Source of the DNA: Pseudobutyrivibrio ruminis AD2017
Lineage (GTDB): Bacteria; Bacillota; Clostridia; Lachnospirales; Lachnospiraceae
Length of the DNA: 64,000 bases
NCBI RefSeq assembly: GCF_000424305.1
Contig: NZ_AUJQ01000005.1
Coordinates: 1-64,000 of the forward strand
Direction: 5' to 3'
The position numbers and the translations under genes are program-made. Numbering within the stretch: the first letter of the stretch is position 1; each line of letters begins with the position of its first letter. Positions 2,906 to 33,821 of this stretch are shown in pieces. Below the pieces are notes generated by a model. The model was not told the origin of the DNA and did no database searches. It worked only from the letters and a program-made list of their open reading frames with translations.

Positions 2906-3005
2906 AAAGCCATCTAGTAGGTAACAAGCTCAAATATTTCTTAAGCGAAGCTTTCTATGCTGAGCGAAGAAATAATTTGGCTTGTTACCGTAACTAGATG
3001 GCTTT
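2906..3005. repeat. 100-nt long imperfect hairpin between convergent genes
   Basis: Three nested arm pairs: 13 bp (2906-2918 with 2993-3005), 10 bp (2920-2929 with 2980-2989) and 12 bp with one bulge (2931-2942 with 2967-2979), enclosing a 24-nt loop. It sits exactly between two genes transcribed towards each other, so a bidirectional terminator is the simplest reading, but it is longer than usual terminators and could be a miniature inverted-repeat element. Confidence 0.7.
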
Positions 3006-3011
3006 AGTTTA

Positions 3012-3716
3012 TTATCTTTCAGATACTTTCTTGTATCCAGTCTTTACCAGCCACTTCTGGTCAATGACTTTGATTTCATCGCCAAATGCGATGTGAAGTC
3101 TTACAGATGATGGCTGTTTTTCTATTTCTTTTACAGTGCCTTCGCCAAACTTTGGATGAGATACTGTATCTCCGATTTCGTATTTAACCTTTGCGTTTTC
3201 CATGTTCTTATAAGCACGCTGAGTACGGTATGTATCAAGCATCTGTACCTGTGCGTGATTAACGCTAGGACGCTTTAATACTGAATCATAGTCAACCTTC
3301 TTGAGGCTCTGGCCTTCTACATAATAGTCTGAAGGGATGGCGCCAATTAAACTGCAGCAATATTTCCAAGCGCTACCGTGAACACCTGGCTGCCAGGTAT
3401 ATTCATTAGGTATGCTGATGTGTCGTGTCATGTAGTGTGCGTATTCGTGCTTGTAGAGATTAATGCGGTCTGTTTTTGATAATTGCTCATTTAAGCAAAA
3501 GCCGATAAAGAATAATGAGAACTGGAACTGTTCTTCATCATCATAAGATGGTGGAAGATAAGAGCCTAATGCCTTTTCATCCATTCCAAAGGTGATAGGA
3601 ACCTCAGCACCGTGTAAACCAAGCTTGTGGTCTAATACGGAGTAAAGTGCAGTGATTTCTGCTCTAAGCACTGGTTCCTCATCGTGTAACATTTTGAACA
3701 TTTGTTGCTTAGTCAT
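3012..3716 (-). CDS. SprT-like metallopeptidase-fold protein with PcrA-type tail
   Basis: Residues 84-125 contain HEYAH (90-94) and a downstream HG in GVHGSAWK (111-118), the zinc-ligand pattern HExxH...HG of SprT-like proteins. The C-terminal ~50 residues (KYEIGDTVSHPKFGEGTVKEIE) match the Tudor-like tail found at the end of UvrD/PcrA helicases, which binds RNA polymerase or nucleic-acid complexes there. The combination suggests a DNA- or transcription-associated protease-like protein acting in the cytoplasm, but this is inference. ATG at 3716 is preceded (on the minus strand) by AAGGAG. Monocistronic; the 3' end abuts the long hairpin. Confidence 0.7.
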   Translation of the reverse strand: MTKQQMFKMLHDEEPVLRAEITALYSVLDHKLGLHGAEVPITFGMDEKALGSYLPPSYDDEEQFQFSLFFIGFCLNEQLSKTDRINLYKHEYAHYMTRHISIPNEYTWQPGVHGSAWKYCCSLIGAIPSDYYVEGQSLKKVDYDSVLKRPSVNHAQVQMLDTYRTQRAYKNMENAKVKYEIGDTVSHPKFGEGTVKEIEKQPSSVRLHIAFGDEIKVIDQKWLVKTGYKKVSER

Positions 3717-26464: not shown

Positions 26465-29400
26465 ATGAAGAAAATGGGAGAGTGGGCGAAGCGCGTAGCT
26501 TCGGTCGGACTTAGTCTCGCATTACTCTTAGGTTCAACCAACCTAGGATTGGCAGCGGCTAATGTCAAAGATTTAAACACAGTTCATGCGGCTTCTGCAG
26601 TCAGCAGAGAGTCAATCCATGATGGAACAATCTTACATGCTTTTGCATGGAACTTTAACACAATTAAAGAGAACATTCCTGATATTGCAGCAGCAGGCTA
26701 CACAGCTGTTCAGACATCACCTATCAATGAGTGCTTGTCTACAGAACCAGGCCTTACATTGTTTAGCGACACAGGAAAATGGTATTACCACTATCAGCCT
26801 ACAGACTGGGTAATCGGCAACTATCAGCTTGGAACCAGAGATGAATTCAAGGCTATGTGTGATGAGGCTGAAAAGTATGGCATCGGTATTATCGTTGATA
26901 TCGACCCTAACCATACAACACCTGTATTTGACGAGATTAGTGATGGATTGCTTAACGCTGTTGGCGGTAAGGATAATCTTTATCACATCAACGGTGCTGA
27001 TACATCAAGAGCTATGAATTATTCAGACCGTGTATCAACAACCTACGACCCAATGGGTGGTCTTCCAGATGTTGATACAGAAAGTGATGCTTTCCAGAAG
27101 TATTTCTACGAGTTCTTACAGGACTGTATAGCTTGTGGTGCTGATGGATTCAGAATCGATACTGCAAAGCATATTGCACTTCCAGATGACGGTGTTCCAG
27201 CAGAATATGCAGGACAGGAGGATAGAAATGATTTCTATCCAAACATGAAGAGCTACATAGATGAGTATGCATCTAAGGATTATGCAGATTTGTTTGTGTA
27301 CGGCGAGGTACTCCAGGGTGATACAGCCCGCCTTGCAGCCTACCAAGATATGCTTGGCGGCACAACAGCCAGCGACTACGGTTCAGCTCTTAGAACTGCA
27401 ATTTCAAGCGGTAACGTTGCAACAAAGAAGCTTGAAGGCTACAAGATTTCTGATGATGTAAAGGGTGATGTAACCTATACAGCAGATCCTAACAAGCTGG
27501 TTACCTGGGTAGAATCTCACGACAATTACATCAATGACAAATCTTATAATTCAGTAGATGACACAGATGTTATCCTTGCATGGTCTATCATCGCTGCAAG
27601 AAAGGATGGTACACCATTATTCTTCAGCAGACCAATGGGAAGCTCTAAGGACAACCCATGGGGCGAGAATGTTCTTGGTGCAGCAGGTAGTGACATCTAC
27701 AAGGATCCACAGGTTGTTGCAGTAAACAAATTCAGAACTGCAATGGCAGGAGAATCAGAGAACCTTGTTAACCCAGCAGGGGACAACTCAGTTCTTATGA
27801 TTGAAAGAGGAACAAAGGGCGTTGTTATTGTAAATGCATCAGATGCACAGTTTAACCTTGAGGAGAAAACAAATCTTGCAGATGGCAATTATCTTGATTC
27901 TGTAGAGGGTCGTGATGGATTATTTATCGTATCAGATGGAGTTATAACTGGTAAGGTGCCAGCTCAGTCAGTGGTTGTTTTGGACAAGCAGGCTGAGGGA
28001 GACTATTCCACGCTATCCTTCTTCAACTCAAGAGAATGGGACAATGTCAGCGCTATTTGCGATGGTGTTAATTATCCTTGCGATAATACTGGCGATGGTT
28101 GGTGGAAGGTTACAATCCCACAAGCAAGCTTCAAAATAACATTTACAGACGGAAATGAAACATCAAATGAATTTAGCATCACACCAGAAACAGGAAAATA
28201 TGTTACTGGCGAAAACGGAAAAATCTATTCCTCTAAGAAGGAAGCAGAGGACGATTTAGGAGTAATCACAAAATCGGTTTACTTCTTCAACACAAAGGAA
28301 TGGAAGACAGTATATGCCTACGCCTGGTATGAGGATGGCAAGCAGGTATATGGCGGCTGGCCAGGACTTGCAGCTAAAAACGAAGGCGGCTACTGGTACA
28401 GAGCAGACGTAAAGATGATGACAGACAAGTCATTTAGCATCATCTTCAACAACGGTAACGGCACACAGACAGAAAATATCGACATGAGCGATATGTCTAA
28501 GAACTACATCGCATTAAGCGAGGAGCAGCCAGGTGGAAACCTTAAGGTAGAAAGATTTGCATCAAAGGACGAGGCATCAGAGGCACTTGGTATTTACGGT
28601 GACAAGACTACAGTTTATTTCTACAACACACGTGGCTGGGAAAAGGTTGGTGTGTACACATGGGGTGCAGCAGACCTTGGAGAATGGCCTGGAAAAGAAG
28701 CTGAAAACATTGGTAACAACTGGTGGAAATTAACCATCGACAGTGCACCAGGTTCAGACTTCAATATCATCTTCAATGATTTTGGCGGTGGCTCTCAGAC
28801 AGGAAATCTTTTAGTAGATAGCATCTCAAAGGTTTATTTCTGGGGCAACAACAAATACTCATCTAAGGCAGAGGCAGAAAAGGCTGCCTACGACTTTGAG
28901 CATTCAGAGGGTGAGACTATTGAAGAAAAAGACGGAAACACATTAGTTTATTTCTATGATGAAAATGCATGGTCTGATGTGTATGTATATGCATGGGGCG
29001 GTAACTATAACAACTGCATCGGCGATTGGCCTGGAACAAAGATGACACGCCTTGGTGGCGGCTGGTATGCAGCAAACGTACCTAACGAAGCGATTGACAA
29101 CACTGATTTACATTTAATCTTTAATGATGGTAACGGCACACAGCTTCCTGACAATGTAATGGAAGGCAGAAGCAAGCTTTTCTTCACATCTGGTACAACA
29201 GCTGGTTTTGACTCAAAGAGTGCTGTAGAGGAATATCTTGGAAAGGAAAAGCCTTCGCAGCCAGAAGAACCAACAGAGCCAGAGGCGAAGCCTATTGATG
29301 AAGAGCCTGCAGTAGCTGACGGATACACAAGACTTTACACAAAGGTTGATGCAACTAATACAGATGATGTGTACATGTACGCATGGCTTAAAAAGGATGA

Positions 29401-30361
29401 TGGCACATCAGGTGGCGAACCATTTGAGGGATGGCCAGGTAAGAAGATGATGCATATCGGAAACGGCTGGCATGCAATCGATATCGAAAACAAGTATCTT
29501 ACAGGATATGTTGATGCAGAGGTTGAGGATATCGTTAAGGATAATGCTGATGTTGATGCTATCGTTGAGGACAATGCGGCTGGTTCAGAGGAAGTAGTTA
29601 CAGAAGAGTTAGTTACAGACGAGTTAGTCACAGACGAAGCTGTTGAGGATGAGGCAGCCAGCGCTGAGGAAACAGATGTTATTTCAGTTATCACTAATGT
29701 AATTGATGTTCTTACAAGTGCATTCAAGCCAATAACAGCTAGTGCTAAGGAAACAGTAAGAATCCCAGTAGAGATTCAGTATATTGTTCATAATAACAAT
29801 GGTCAGCAGAATGAAGCACCTGTAGTTACAACAGTTCGCCCTAGCGATGAGGAGCTTGGCAAGGCAGTTGCACCAGCTCCAGCACCAGCACCAGCTCCAG
29901 CGCCTTCAGTAACACCTTCACAGCCTAGCGCTTCCGGCTCTACACCTTCAGCTAGCCCATCACAGAGTGGGGCTCAGAATGTTGTGACTCCAAAGACAGA
30001 AGTAGCTGTAGTAGAACCACAGGTACCACTTGCAGGCGCAGTAAAATCTGCAGATGCAACTATAAAGAAGGTTGCTAAATCTACAAAGAAGGTTGCAGCA
30101 GAGGATAAAGAGGAGACTGTAGAAGATACTACTGAAGATACAGCAGAGACAACTGAGGAAGCTGCTGACGATGAGACAACAGAAGAGCAGACAACTGAGG
30201 AAACAGCTTCTGAGGATGAGGCTCCTGCAGAAATCGCAGAAGAGGAAGCACCAAAGGCTGCCGAGAATTCTGCATTCCCAGTAGCACCAGTTGCAGTAGT
30301 GGTTGTTGTAATCGTTGCAGCAGTAGGCGCAAGATTATTTATTAAGCGTAAACGTTTCTAA
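26465..30361 (+). CDS. Surface-anchored GH13 alpha-amylase with five CBM26-like modules
   Basis: A 1298-residue extracellular starch hydrolase. A signal peptide (~1-31, ending LGLAAA) is followed by the GH13 barrel with conserved regions DIDPNH (~144), GFRIDTAKH (~228, Asp nucleophile), VYGEVLQ (~280, acid/base Glu) and WVESHDN (~350). Five repeated starch-binding modules of the CBM26 type follow, each with an aromatic start such as VYFYNTRGWEKV and a GWPG turn (about 517, 604, 716, 827, 956). Then come an acidic region with VTEELVTDELVTDE repeats, a PAPAPAP linker, a Glu/Thr-rich segment and a C-terminal membrane helix (VAVVVVVIVAAVGARLF) with a KRKRF tail. It therefore stays on the cell surface. 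GGGAGG precedes ATG 26465. Confidence 0.95.
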   Translation: MKKMGEWAKRVASVGLSLALLLGSTNLGLAAANVKDLNTVHAASAVSRESIHDGTILHAFAWNFNTIKENIPDIAAAGYTAVQTSPINECLSTEPGLTLFSDTGKWYYHYQPTDWVIGNYQLGTRDEFKAMCDEAEKYGIGIIVDIDPNHTTPVFDEISDGLLNAVGGKDNLYHINGADTSRAMNYSDRVSTTYDPMGGLPDVDTESDAFQKYFYEFLQDCIACGADGFRIDTAKHIALPDDGVPAEYAGQEDRNDFYPNMKSYIDEYASKDYADLFVYGEVLQGDTARLAAYQDMLGGTTASDYGSALRTAISSGNVATKKLEGYKISDDVKGDVTYTADPNKLVTWVESHDNYINDKSYNSVDDTDVILAWSIIAARKDGTPLFFSRPMGSSKDNPWGENVLGAAGSDIYKDPQVVAVNKFRTAMAGESENLVNPAGDNSVLMIERGTKGVVIVNASDAQFNLEEKTNLADGNYLDSVEGRDGLFIVSDGVITGKVPAQSVVVLDKQAEGDYSTLSFFNSREWDNVSAICDGVNYPCDNTGDGWWKVTIPQASFKITFTDGNETSNEFSITPETGKYVTGENGKIYSSKKEAEDDLGVITKSVYFFNTKEWKTVYAYAWYEDGKQVYGGWPGLAAKNEGGYWYRADVKMMTDKSFSIIFNNGNGTQTENIDMSDMSKNYIALSEEQPGGNLKVERFASKDEASEALGIYGDKTTVYFYNTRGWEKVGVYTWGAADLGEWPGKEAENIGNNWWKLTIDSAPGSDFNIIFNDFGGGSQTGNLLVDSISKVYFWGNNKYSSKAEAEKAAYDFEHSEGETIEEKDGNTLVYFYDENAWSDVYVYAWGGNYNNCIGDWPGTKMTRLGGGWYAANVPNEAIDNTDLHLIFNDGNGTQLPDNVMEGRSKLFFTSGTTAGFDSKSAVEEYLGKEKPSQPEEPTEPEAKPIDEEPAVADGYTRLYTKVDATNTDDVYMYAWLKKDDGTSGGEPFEGWPGKKMMHIGNGWHAIDIENKYLTGYVDAEVEDIVKDNADVDAIVEDNAAGSEEVVTEELVTDELVTDEAVEDEAASAEETDVISVITNVIDVLTSAFKPITASAKETVRIPVEIQYIVHNNNGQQNEAPVVTTVRPSDEELGKAVAPAPAPAPAPAPSVTPSQPSASGSTPSASPSQSGAQNVVTPKTEVAVVEPQVPLAGAVKSADATIKKVAKSTKKVAAEDKEETVEDTTEDTAETTEEAADDETTEEQTTEETASEDEAPAEIAEEEAPKAAENSAFPVAPVAVVVVVIVAAVGARLFIKRKRF

Positions 30362-30381
30362 CTATAATAGATTTAACCCGA

Positions 30382-30430
30382 AAAGATCACTTTCGCTATC
30401 GGTATTAGGTAGCGAAGGTGGTCTTTTTAG
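30382..30430 (+). terminator. Terminator of the alpha-amylase
   Basis: AAAGATCACTTTCGCTA (30382-30398) pairs with TAGCGAAGGTGGTCTTT (30410-30426) with two G-U pairs; TTTTT follows. Confidence 0.85.
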
Positions 30431-30444
30431 TTTTAAATGGCCTT

Positions 30445-30810
30445 GTTAAGTTTTATTTAGCGGTTTTGAAATTACACTTAACTGTAAATGGCCAGATTGT
30501 TAAGTGAATCTAGGAAAAAATGATTTTCACTTAAAATTGGATAATCGTGTTAAGTGGCATAAAGATTTTTTAGAAAAAACTTAACTTTATACTTCTAAAT
30601 TTTTAATGACTTAAGTGAAATATGAATTTGCAGAAAAAAACTTATACTATCGTAAAGAGTAGTTAAGTGAATATTTGTAAAACTAAAATAAACTTAAATT
30701 AACCTAAAAATATTTAATGAAAATTAAGTTTATTTATTTTTTTCTCATATTCACTTAACAGCATCTTACGATTTTAAGTGAAAATAATAAATTCCCATTT
30801 TAAACTTAAC
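30445..30810. repeat. Array of 14 GTTAAGTGAA-type boxes in alternating orientation
   Basis: The non-coding gap 30431-30939 holds 14 copies (13 good, one degenerate) of a ~10-bp box, consensus GTTAAGTGAA. Centre TTAA positions are 30446, 30478, 30500, 30531, 30550, 30581, 30611, 30642 (TTAT), 30663, 30694, 30724, 30755, 30774 and 30806. Orientation alternates strictly +,-,+,-. Each forward box and the following reverse box are 31-32 bp apart in all seven pairs; the gaps between pairs are 19-22 or 30 bp. The spacer sequences are AT-rich and not conserved. No coding frame, promoter or cas gene is associated. Confidence 0.85.
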
Positions 30811-30939
30811 TACCAATTCACCACATCATAAATAATGTGAATTTAGTCCTCATATTATGCTTAAAACAACCGAGTCACTTGTCTGAGACAGCTGTAAATG
30901 ATAAAGTCATAACGTAAATACTAAAAGAGGATGCGAAAT

Positions 30940-31599
30940 ATGGAAAAGAAAAACATAAAAGCAGTGCTATTTGACATGGATGGCACGCTTACAGATACAG
31001 AAAAATTCTATCAGAAGGCCTGGCCTGAGACTTTGGCTCACTTCGGCTACGAAATGACTCCTGAAAAGCCCTTAGAGCTTCGCTCCCTCGGCCGCCCATT
31101 TGCTGTGGAAAAGTTTAAGGAATGGTACGGCGAAGATTTTGATTATTGGGCAGTCAGAGAGTATCGCAAGGCGATGGTAGAGGAAATCCTTAAGGAAACT
31201 GGGATTCCCCTTAAGCCAGGTGCTAAAGAAACATTGAAATGGCTTAGAGACCATGATGTTTTCATTTCTCTTGTTACAGCTAACGATAGAGAACGTGCCA
31301 ACAGATATCTTAAAAAGATAGGTCTATTTGAATATTTTAATGCAGTTGTTTGTGCTGATATGGTTGAAAAGGGCAAGCCTGCACCAGACATCTACGCCTA
31401 CGCCTGTGAGACTCTTGGAATAGCTCCAGATGAAACCTACGCAGTAGAAGATTCTCCAAATGGCTGTATGAGTGCCTACGGCGCCGGCTGTAATGTAATT
31501 ATGATTCCTGATTTAACCGAGCCAGATGAGGAGCTCAAAAAGATATTATATGCAAGACTGGATTGCTTGATGGATATCTGCAAACTGTTTGAAGAATAG
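30940..31599 (+). CDS. HAD-superfamily phosphatase (beta-phosphoglucomutase/PGMB-like)
   Basis: 219 residues with motif I LFDMDGTLTDTE, an alpha-helical cap, motif II SLVTANDR, a motif III Lys in EKGKPAPDIY and motif IV VEDSPNGCMSA. This is the subfamily of PGMB, phosphoglycolate phosphatase and GS1-type hydrolases; its location next to amylase fits sugar-phosphate chemistry but the substrate is unknown. ATG 30940 is 9 nt after AGAGG; an in-frame ATG at 30931 directly abuts the ribosome site. Confidence 0.88.
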   Translation: MEKKNIKAVLFDMDGTLTDTEKFYQKAWPETLAHFGYEMTPEKPLELRSLGRPFAVEKFKEWYGEDFDYWAVREYRKAMVEEILKETGIPLKPGAKETLKWLRDHDVFISLVTANDRERANRYLKKIGLFEYFNAVVCADMVEKGKPAPDIYAYACETLGIAPDETYAVEDSPNGCMSAYGAGCNVIMIPDLTEPDEELKKILYARLDCLMDICKLFEE

Positions 31600-31749
31600 G
31601 AATTATAGTGAATTGTTAACATAAAGTATGTTGATTTCTTCTCAAAATCTGATAATTTGATGAATTATATGTGAAATATCTTCTTTTGACCTAAAAATGT
31701 GATAAATTTCAATATATATGAAACTGTTTATAGTTGGGAAGGAGTCAGC

Positions 31750-32844
31750 ATGCAAATATCAATAGGAACTTCAATGAAAGCTGATTGCGCTCAGGCAGTA
31801 GCAGAAGCAATCGCTAAAGTAAATAACCCAAATCTATTAGTCTTATTATGCGCTTACGAACATCTAAAGGAAGCATCTGAAATTATTTCAGAAAAGTTCA
31901 AGGGCGTTCCACTTATTGGCACCAGCACAACTTCATATTACGAATCGGAATCATCAGATAGAAGAATGCTTGTAATGTGCTTTGGAAGTGATGTTGCTGC
32001 AGAGGTTGGCATCATTCGTAATCTTTCAACTGCACCAATTGCTGACATTGCTTCTATGGAAGAAAAGGTTTCCAAAATTCAGGCTGGTGACAGCAATACA
32101 ATCTGCTTGGAATTTTGTACAAATGATGAGGAGCGTTTGGTAACAACCATGAACGTAGCATTAGAGCGTGCAAGAATTCCTGTTGTTGGTGGAACTATTT
32201 TTGGTTACCCAGCAGGAGCTACAGGCTATGCAATGCTTGATGGTGTTCTTTATCCAGACGCATGTTGTTATGCTCTTATCAAAAATAAATCCGGAAAGAT
32301 TAGAACATATTCAGAGAATATCTTTGGACCAATGGAATGCGGTAGGACACATATTGCAACTAAGGTTAATCTTGCAAATAAGGAGCTAATTTCATTGGAT
32401 GGAAGACCTGCAGCTGATGTTTATTGTGAAGATGCAGGTGTTAGCCGTTCAGAGCTTGTTGATAACGTCTTAGTCAGCCCACTTGGTCGTGTAATTGGTG
32501 ATGAAATCTTCATCAGTAGCCCTTATGCCATTGGTAACAATGGTTCGCTTATCAGCTACAAGAAGATTAATGAGAATGACACTATTGAGATTCTTGAGCT
32601 TAAGGATTACGAGGCTATCGGCGATGAAACCAGACGTCAGATTCGAGACGAAAACGGAAAGATTTCTTTCATATTCTCTGTAAATTGTATTTATAGACAT
32701 TTGTTATTTAACCAGAGAAACTACATGACTGACTTCCTTACAGCCATGAAGAGCGTTGGTCCTCATGTAGGAATTGTTGGTGGTGGTGAGCAGTACAAGA
32801 AACAGCATGTAAATCAGACAATGGTTTGCGCCGTTTTTGAATAG
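31750..32844 (+). CDS. FIST-domain sensory protein
   Basis: 364 residues with the FIST N domain ([18 protein letters not shown] ... [17 protein letters not shown]) and FIST C domain, a predicted small-ligand sensor found alone or fused in bacterial signalling. It is followed after 17 nt by a soluble chemoreceptor, an arrangement suggesting a two-part sensor in which FIST reports to the methyl-accepting protein. AAGGAG precedes ATG 31750. The ligand is unknown (amino acids have been proposed for the family). Confidence 0.85.
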
Positions 32845-32861
32845 AATTGCAGGAGGTCAGT

Positions 32862-33821
32862 ATGGGACTTTTTAGTAGAAAGAAAAAAGAGGAAGAGGTT
32901 GTTGAGGTTAAGAATACGCCTGAGAAGATGGTGGATATTAAATCTCGCATGAAAGCTATTAAGGAGGTTGGTCGATTCTCCATCGAACAGAAGGATAAGC
33001 TTCAGGAAGAGGAGGCCAATACTATTAATGGTATCGAAACTATCAGAGAATCCTTTGCAGTTGTTGAGGATAAATACGGATCAATCTCTGAGTCGGTAGC
33101 AAATTTCCAAAATGAGTTTAAGACCATCGAGGAAATTACACAGGCCTTTGATGAAATTGTTAAAAAGCTGGTTCAGACCGCTGACGATTCTCATAACGGA
33201 ATGGAAAACGTTGACCGAAGCTCTAGTGCAGTTTCAGATACTATTGCAGAGGTTGAAAAGGTTTTCGAAGCCTTCCAGGCAAGCTTTGATGAAATCAGAG
33301 ATAAGGTTGAACAGATTGGTGGCTTCGCAAAGCAGACTAACCTTCTTGCATTAAATGCATCTATCGAGGCTGCTCGTGCTGGTGAGGCAGGTCGAGGCTT
33401 CGCGGTTGTTGCTGACGAAGTAACAAATCTTTCAACAGAGATTCAGAGCGTTGTAACATCTATTTTTGAAAGCATGCAGGCTTTGGATGAAAACAATAAT
33501 CGTCTGGTTGAATCCGTTGACCATACCAAGGAAGCTATCGAGGCTTCTCACGAAAAGGTTGTTGAGACACAGGAGGTTGTAGGCCAGATTAAGACTGTTG
33601 CTGATGAGGTTACTGATCAGAGCGTTCAGATGGGTGAGGTATTTAGAAACTGTGAGAGCTCTATCAACAGCATTTCTGATAATATTGAGGATTCCCGTGG
33701 ATACTTCGATAATGTAACAAATGATATTGAGGATATTAAGGTTAAGATTACCAAGAAGGGATTCATGTTTGAGGATATGAACAACGTACTTGAACAGATT
33801 GATCCATTAACAAATCTCTAA
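32862..33821 (+). CDS. Cytoplasmic methyl-accepting chemotaxis protein
   Basis: 319 residues without any transmembrane segment: a charged start ([13 protein letters not shown]), long coiled coils and the hairpin tip of chemoreceptors ([36 protein letters not shown] at about 150-185). It would signal to CheA/CheW in the cytoplasm. No sensor domain of its own is present; the upstream FIST protein is the likely input. ATG 32862 follows AGGAGG. Confidence 0.9.

Follow-up and report, generated by a model that had tools for sequence, protein, structure and literature searches.

What is a row of short boxes, strictly alternating in orientation, doing in the gap between an amylase-like gene and a HAD-like hydrolase gene of Pseudobutyrivibrio ruminis? 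The gap (30362-30930) lies in a stretch of 64,000 nucleotides from strain AD2017, which we call the window, and it holds 14 boxes, GTTAAGTGAA or variants of it. A sequence-only reading of the window had listed 14 TTAA centres in this gap, and all of them proved exact. We also reproduced every value of its spacings, together with the alternation: the distances from forward to reverse boxes are 32, 31, 31, 31, 31, 31 and 32 bp, and the linkers from reverse to forward boxes are 22, 19, 30, 21, 30 and 19 bp. A single box, at 30642, is degenerate. The features of the region are listed here by their positions in the window, with a strand where one applies (the array and its parts have none).

26465..30361, + strand: upstream neighbour, an amylase-like protein of 1298 aa, named by reading its translation
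30382..30429, + strand: terminator-like stem-loop and T run after the amylase-like gene, outside the array, from reading the sequence
30445..30810: whole array, about 370 bp; in an alignment of 25 arrays conservation ends approximately at the outer boxes
30445..30482: inverted pair 1, boxes 30446 (+) and 30478 (-), spacing 32
30499..30535: inverted pair 2, boxes 30500 (+) and 30531 (-), spacing 31
30549..30585: inverted pair 3, boxes 30550 (+) and 30581 (-), spacing 31
30610..30646: inverted pair 4, boxes 30611 (+) and 30642 (-), the reverse box degenerate (ACTTAT)
30662..30698: inverted pair 5, boxes 30663 (+) and 30694 (-), spacing 31
30699..30722: linker between pairs 5 and 6, 30 bp from TTAA to TTAA; its core, similar to CTAAAA-N2-ATTTAA, is seen again in many copies, as read from the consensus
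30723..30759: inverted pair 6, boxes 30724 (+) and 30755 (-), spacing 31
30773..30810: inverted pair 7, boxes 30774 (+) and 30806 (-), spacing 32
30931..31599, + strand: downstream neighbour, a HAD-like hydrolase of 222 aa, named by reading its translation

Further downstream of the HAD gene (31699-33821) come a FIST-like sensor gene and then a methyl-accepting-chemotaxis-like gene, both read from their translations.

Might such boxes be no more numerous than in shuffled sequence, as the sequence-only reading had asked of its own claim? They are far more numerous. Shuffling positions 30362-30930 500 times with dinucleotides preserved gave 0.02 exact TTAAG-N24-26-CTTAA pairs on average and never more than 1, whereas the gap contains 6. 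It likewise contains 7 boxes matching GTTAAGTGAA at 9 or more of its 10 positions, against a mean of 0.09 and a maximum of 2 in the same shuffles.

Copies in the genome and in the genus

The genome of the window is a draft of 2.91 Mb in 21 contigs. In it we counted matches to TTAAGTG-N20-23-ACTTAA, where a symmetric pair scores once per strand: 54 were forward and 46 reverse, while the reversed control gave 1 of each. At least 13 arrays have five or more pairs when one mismatch is allowed, and there is a remnant besides (L011); the number 13 is a lower bound, since more degraded arrays would escape the threshold. When the full 31-bp pair is searched with up to three mismatches, 41 of the 42 forward matches fall in arrays or in the remnant, and the control gives 3. 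The arrays sit between predicted genes, and an ORF that starts with GTG reaches or overlaps the edge of two of them (L022 and L023). In another genome, G011, two arrays that look very similar by eye (L105:1811-2198 and 2910-3290) lie 1.1 kb apart and flank a 193-aa ORF; also by eye, a short sequence just beyond the outer boxes is common to both.

We surveyed 61 genomes for arrays of the kind found in the window (type A). At least seven pattern matches, both strands summed, were found in 11 of the 29 genomes of the Pseudobutyrivibrio group, one of which (G001) is counted as a carrier at seven matches by count alone. The remaining 18 have at most two matches each, and type A arrays are thus dispensable within the genus. 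None of the 32 genomes of other genera carries arrays; they have at most three matches, which is within the range of the reversed control. Counting genome-wide, as the sequence-only reading had suggested, hence finds the boxes, 31-bp spacing included, again and again in this genome and in others of the genus. In a collection of named genomes the exact symmetric pair occurs in 42 stretches, a count that may omit the records nearest to the window: 21 of these stretches have at least five pairs and are all Pseudobutyrivibrio by title, and the other 21, from other organisms, have one pair each. Viral contigs contain single pairs only, in 3 and 18 stretches, and none matches the pattern of the type B arrays described below. 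A blastn search of phage and plasmid collections with the window array found nothing. Given these searches we rejected a phage or plasmid origin. Among the matches listed from the open-licence literature we found no description of such arrays, including by box string or together with Pseudobutyrivibrio; ten-base box strings do occur there, and among the matches listed none concerns such repeats.

The site of the window array is a case of its own. The HAD gene is present in 24 genomes and the array lies upstream of it only in the genome of the window. The sequence-only reading had named relatives with the same gap and no boxes as evidence against selection for the array, and, taken to the letter, such relatives exist, the array being found in 1 of the 24 genomes with the HAD gene. 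Yet none of the four near relatives that we read has the gap at full length and merely empty of boxes; theirs is shortened: G023, G014 and G025 have a short box-free gap upstream of the HAD gene, and G018 retains one box and the far flank. The G018 site reads as a probable deletion scar. By eye, and with edges that are rearranged, we noticed no target duplication at the window locus relative to these four genomes. At other sites, too, arrays seem to have been lost or to have collapsed (L011, L118). Individual arrays are thus transient, because the window copy is absent from that gap in 23 of the 24 genomes: single arrays come and go and the set persists. On a tree of the HAD protein from the 24 genomes, 10 of which bear arrays, the array label changes 4 times, against 8.1 for shuffled labels, only 4 of the 21 inner branches of this tree being well supported.

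Layout of the arrays and conservation of the boxes

The sequence-only reading had placed the boxes near whole numbers of helical turns, facing about the same side of the DNA. The phasing was confirmed and the period had to be revised: in the window array the resultant is 0.874 at a repeat of about 10.24 bp and only 0.171 at 10.5 bp. In a set of 24 arrays from 22 sites (L012 and L121 share one site, as do L020 and L062), pooling gives a phase score of 0.733 at 10.26 bp. The maximum in 400 simulations, where pair spacing was kept and linkers were drawn freely from 10 to 41 bp, is 0.270. Even the lowest score of a single array (L017) is 0.634. In this set the forward-to-reverse spacing is 31-33 bp in 140 of 143 cases and the reverse-to-forward linkers are 9-11, 19-22, 30-32 or 40 bp in 116 of 119, these classes corresponding to about one, two, three and four helical turns. 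Neighbouring exact boxes alternate in 262 of 280 cases, i.e. not in all. Naturally, the arrays are related copies and common descent is partly behind the shared spacing. The boxes lie on one common face of the DNA, with a repeat of about 10.26 bp; a repeat below 10.5 bp would fit DNA that is wrapped or slightly overwound.

The layout of the pairs is itself shared. When 25 arrays spanning 355-368 bp are aligned in one orientation, orthologues included, pairs start at about 0, 53, 104, 165 (or 174), 217, 278 and 328; other arrays are shorter, with 5 or 6 pairs. The alternative position of pair 4 is a displacement by about one helical turn, which turns linkers of 30 and 21 bp into linkers of 40 and 11 bp. 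One array (L019, the call of which also included a stray pair further away) has eight pairs, with linkers of 21, 19, 30, 21, 30, 19 and 21 bp. Because these linkers are mirror-symmetric, the common seven-pair form looks like a symmetric eight-pair design minus one end pair.

How do the boxes fare over evolutionary time relative to the sequence between them? We grouped arrays by site with masked-flank BLAST and found that species can share an array site even where the identity of the flanks is down to 72-87% (four deeper pairs). We took the 6-bp cores of all boxes exact in one or the other array and set them against the spacers in 37 comparisons between orthologues, over 14 sites. The cores were the more identical part every time, with a one-way p<0.01 in 29 comparisons; these comparisons are not independent and some involve truncated or composite arrays. 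Arrays that hardly differ, and one truncated array, account for most of the 8 weak contrasts. With the first array as reference, and with the core and spacer identities in both directions in brackets, cores and spacers agree at 86/86 and 165/280 positions in L012/L121 (0.88 and 0.48; two-direction counts drop where one array is longer, as here), at 82/84 and 205/281 in L062/L112 (0.99 and 0.73), at 82/84 and 176/268 in L107/L116 (0.93 and 0.64), and at 83/90 and 147/275 in L017/L124 (0.93 and 0.54). Spacers are dissimilar within one array, yet inherited between orthologous arrays. The further expectation that the 31-bp spacing would be kept in relatives despite spacer divergence was borne out: the spacing recurs across the genus and the cores outlast the spacers. 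The gap at uvrB has clusters of at least 8 boxes in 9 of 28 genomes, and there is a tenth genome (G018) in which the array is on another contig end (L119). A CRISPR array was rejected on the grounds that box orientation alternates and that spacers are inherited between orthologous arrays.

Most boxes have one of two forms, TTAAGTGAA or TTAAGTTTATT, and the forms do not covary within a pair (counts 71, 36, 24 and 6, with 3 pairs of other forms set aside; odds ratio 0.49, p 0.18). This matters for the possibility that the array is a structured non-coding RNA with seven hairpins. Each pair could indeed make a stem, and the folds of the single strands outdo those of 100 shuffled sequences (z -4.4 and -5.4), but inverted boxes alone would be expected to yield such values. 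RNA stems need matching forms within a pair and the forms do not match, which disfavours hairpins. Nor does Rfam, at its gathering score, have any match within an array in the 18 loci scanned; in the window stretch it has only far sub-threshold matches, one of which is inside the array. We thus consider RNA hairpins extremely unlikely.

Type B arrays and shared gaps

The uvrB gap does not always contain the same code. A different but related array occupies it in G006 and G027. In G011 it holds a diverged form, and G019, a near relative of G011, has a type A array there. In these type B arrays TTAAGTG is paired with CGCACT, and the box takes the form TAAG(T/C)G. The type B pattern occurs in 6 of the 29 genomes, the single matches in G001 and G009 being doubtful. 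The grammar is that of type A: among the 20 loci that we analysed, from G025, G018 and G006, the forward-to-reverse spacing is 31-33 in 82 of 88 cases and the linkers are 9-11 or 19-22 bp in 74 of 77. The pooled repeat is 10.36 bp, a value obtained from related copies and with no null comparison.

Seven of the 20 type B loci share their gap, with both flanks matching, with a type A array of another species. They are found at uvrB (L207), at flagellin (L193, L204), between ABC permeases (L194, L205) and at an SDR gene (L195, L203), and in three of them (L193, L194, L205) type A pairs are also present. Another locus (L209) shares one flank with a type A site, two (L196, L206) lie in a neighbouring gap near asnS, and the remaining 10 matched no type A site among the loci compared. 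At the shared gaps position looks more lasting than code. Possibly there was no replacement of the code and these are two mobile families with a common preference for the same gaps.

Composite arrays, with type B units followed by type A units, occur in one gap between ABC permease genes (L121:1884-2529 and L205:2092-2585). In G004 the array upstream of uvrB (L150:367-811) is a further variant, with the box GAGTTAAGTTG, and several tandem copies of a different repeat lie downstream of it.

Known systems and a putative chromosomal scaffold

What do the arrays serve? The sequence-only reading had offered a partition site, a nucleoid-organising site and a dense regulator array as options. In the last of these a transcription factor on the boxes would control the flanking genes. 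Arrays do lie in gene gaps, and several are upstream of genes (uvrB, asnS and the copper ATPase region, names given by reading). However, the neighbours of the arrays in the genome of the window, named from their translations, include flagellin, uvrB, asparaginyl-tRNA synthetase, two ABC permeases, a copper ATPase region, thiC and others, and there is nothing evidently common among their functions. Gene orientations are mixed too: by reading, and with small ORFs ignored, genes are co-directional around 9 of the 13 arrays, convergent around 2 and divergent around 2. If the boxes were operators one might look for an isolated pair marking an autoregulated gene, and we found none in this genome, where one weak match lies outside the arrays. 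Among the three options regulation is thus disfavoured by the unrelated neighbours, and we regard dense operators as improbable.

A second alternative is that the arrays are non-autonomous mobile repeats resembling MITEs, their boxes binding a transposase encoded elsewhere, and that they are copied into gaps and slowly decay there. Like MITEs, the arrays are short, dispersed, gene-free and sharp-ended. Their distribution among species is patchy, and the gaps of near relatives can lack them. Two copies 1.1 kb apart in G011 look very similar, and type B copies at different places are 66-83% identical. Yet several species have an array in one and the same gap although the flanks have diverged, conservation being confined to the boxes, internal ones included, and this is unlike MITEs. 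Comparing one locus by eye showed no target duplication, the window array lacks blastn matches in the phage and plasmid collections, and viral contigs have only single pairs. Of near-identical copies, such as MITEs would leave at unrelated sites, we saw the one local pair of G011, judged by eye; the copies in the genome of the window are diverged in the alignment. Our test for transposases covered the Y1 family only. We find a MITE-like origin rather unlikely, and it is the rival to which we give most weight.

The Y1 family is relevant to a third alternative, repeats of the REP/BIME type, spread by a REP-associated transposase and bound by general DNA proteins. According to excerpts of the published descriptions, BIME, REP and REPIN elements are dispersed in gene gaps as alternating, regularly spaced units with reported protein binding (PMC2817692, PMC8049555). 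The arrays resemble them in gene-gap dispersal and regular spacing, and their alternating orientation and location recall BIMEs as excerpted (PMC2817692). But REP-type units are hairpins, and the arrays consist of boxes of 10-12 bp that make none, GTTAAGTGAA being palindromic only in its TTAA. They also have a fixed layout of 7-8 helically phased pairs, and about 13 copies, where those elements number over 100. Furthermore, Y1_Tnp is found in 10 of the 29 genomes but in only 2 of the 11 type A carriers (G006 and G023); PF01797 has no match in the other 9, drafts that include the genome of the window, and one match in each of these two. REP or REPIN elements were rejected for the missing transposase and the non-palindromic box, and we deem this alternative very improbable.

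Arrays of boxes do make up plasmid centromeres, such as sopC of F. In the excerpts at hand, parS of pSM19035 consists of many short boxes in mixed orientation that make one partition complex, with 7-10 consecutive heptads overlapping the promoters of par genes (PMC9499535). The arrays share the many short boxes in mixed orientation with parS as so described, but their boxes are mostly 19-32 bp apart, and they are chromosomal and present at a dozen places. With no consecutive 7-bp heptads in the arrays, and no par genes read among the genes flanking them in the genome of the window, parS of this type was rejected. Chromosomal parS sites bound by ParB resemble the arrays in being specific sites dispersed on one chromosome, yet each is a 16-bp palindrome. 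We looked for the chromosomal site TGTTTCACGTGAAACA in six genomes and found two exact copies in every one, whether or not it carries arrays; these copies lie apart from the arrays. ParB_N is found in 28 of the 29 genomes, in 1-5 copies each, and these numbers do not track the arrays. A ParABS centromere was therefore rejected as well. The STAR elements of staphylococci are interspersed and intergenic like the arrays, but the excerpt describes direct repeats and mentions neither inverted pairs nor phasing, both of which the arrays have (PMC3532100).

The data fit a selected cis-acting protein-binding scaffold better than RNA, CRISPR, standard parS or REP-type repeats. A putative scaffold of this kind, which the sequence-only reading had favoured, is well supported, because box cores are conserved over spacers in place, linkers are phased and box forms do not covary; a MITE-like origin is still its rival. 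Since the neighbours are unrelated and isolated operators are lacking, we infer that chromosome structure rather than local transcription would be served. We give about even chances to the reading that the window array belongs to a set of scaffolds dispersed over the chromosome for a putative DNA-binding protein, scaffolds that act on the chromosome rather than on the adjacent genes.

How might such a scaffold work? In the full form 14-16 half-sites would make 7-8 inverted pairs, all facing the same side of the helix. A putative dimeric protein would occupy each pair, and adjacent dimers would join along one face, bending or wrapping the DNA into one large nucleoprotein body. Several of these bodies per chromosome might then condense, bridge or anchor it, in the manner of a centromere-like or nucleoid-organising site. 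The position would be kept while the protein-DNA code changes by lineage, as is suggested by type B arrays in some type A gaps. One might speculate further that the arrays are secondary centromere-like loci distributed over the chromosome, with positions inherited across species and a code replaced by lineage, from type A to type B, tracking a fast-evolving binder. We hold this extension to be doubtful. If it were true, it would be a bacterial counterpart of centromere-code turnover, played out on a helically phased scaffold.

The organisation of bacterial chromosomes is generally ascribed for the most part to motifs that occur singly and dispersed, or to proteins that bind broadly. If one genus keeps a large array, phased exactly, at many chromosomal positions, this would argue for a new architectural protein, and a swap of box code in the same gaps would be a natural experiment on the joint change of a protein and its DNA code. 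Should the arrays turn out to be BIME-like or partition-like after all, they would be less novel.

The location of arrays along the chromosome can be followed in the one near-closed genome, G011, with positions taken by hand, and they hint at a possible, weak bias towards the origin. On its contig C1, of 2702 kb, arrays lie at about 97, 254, 653, 658, 927-928, 1029 (diverged) and 1743 kb; parS is at 809864-809980, and 4 of the 7 array sites lie within about 220 kb of it.
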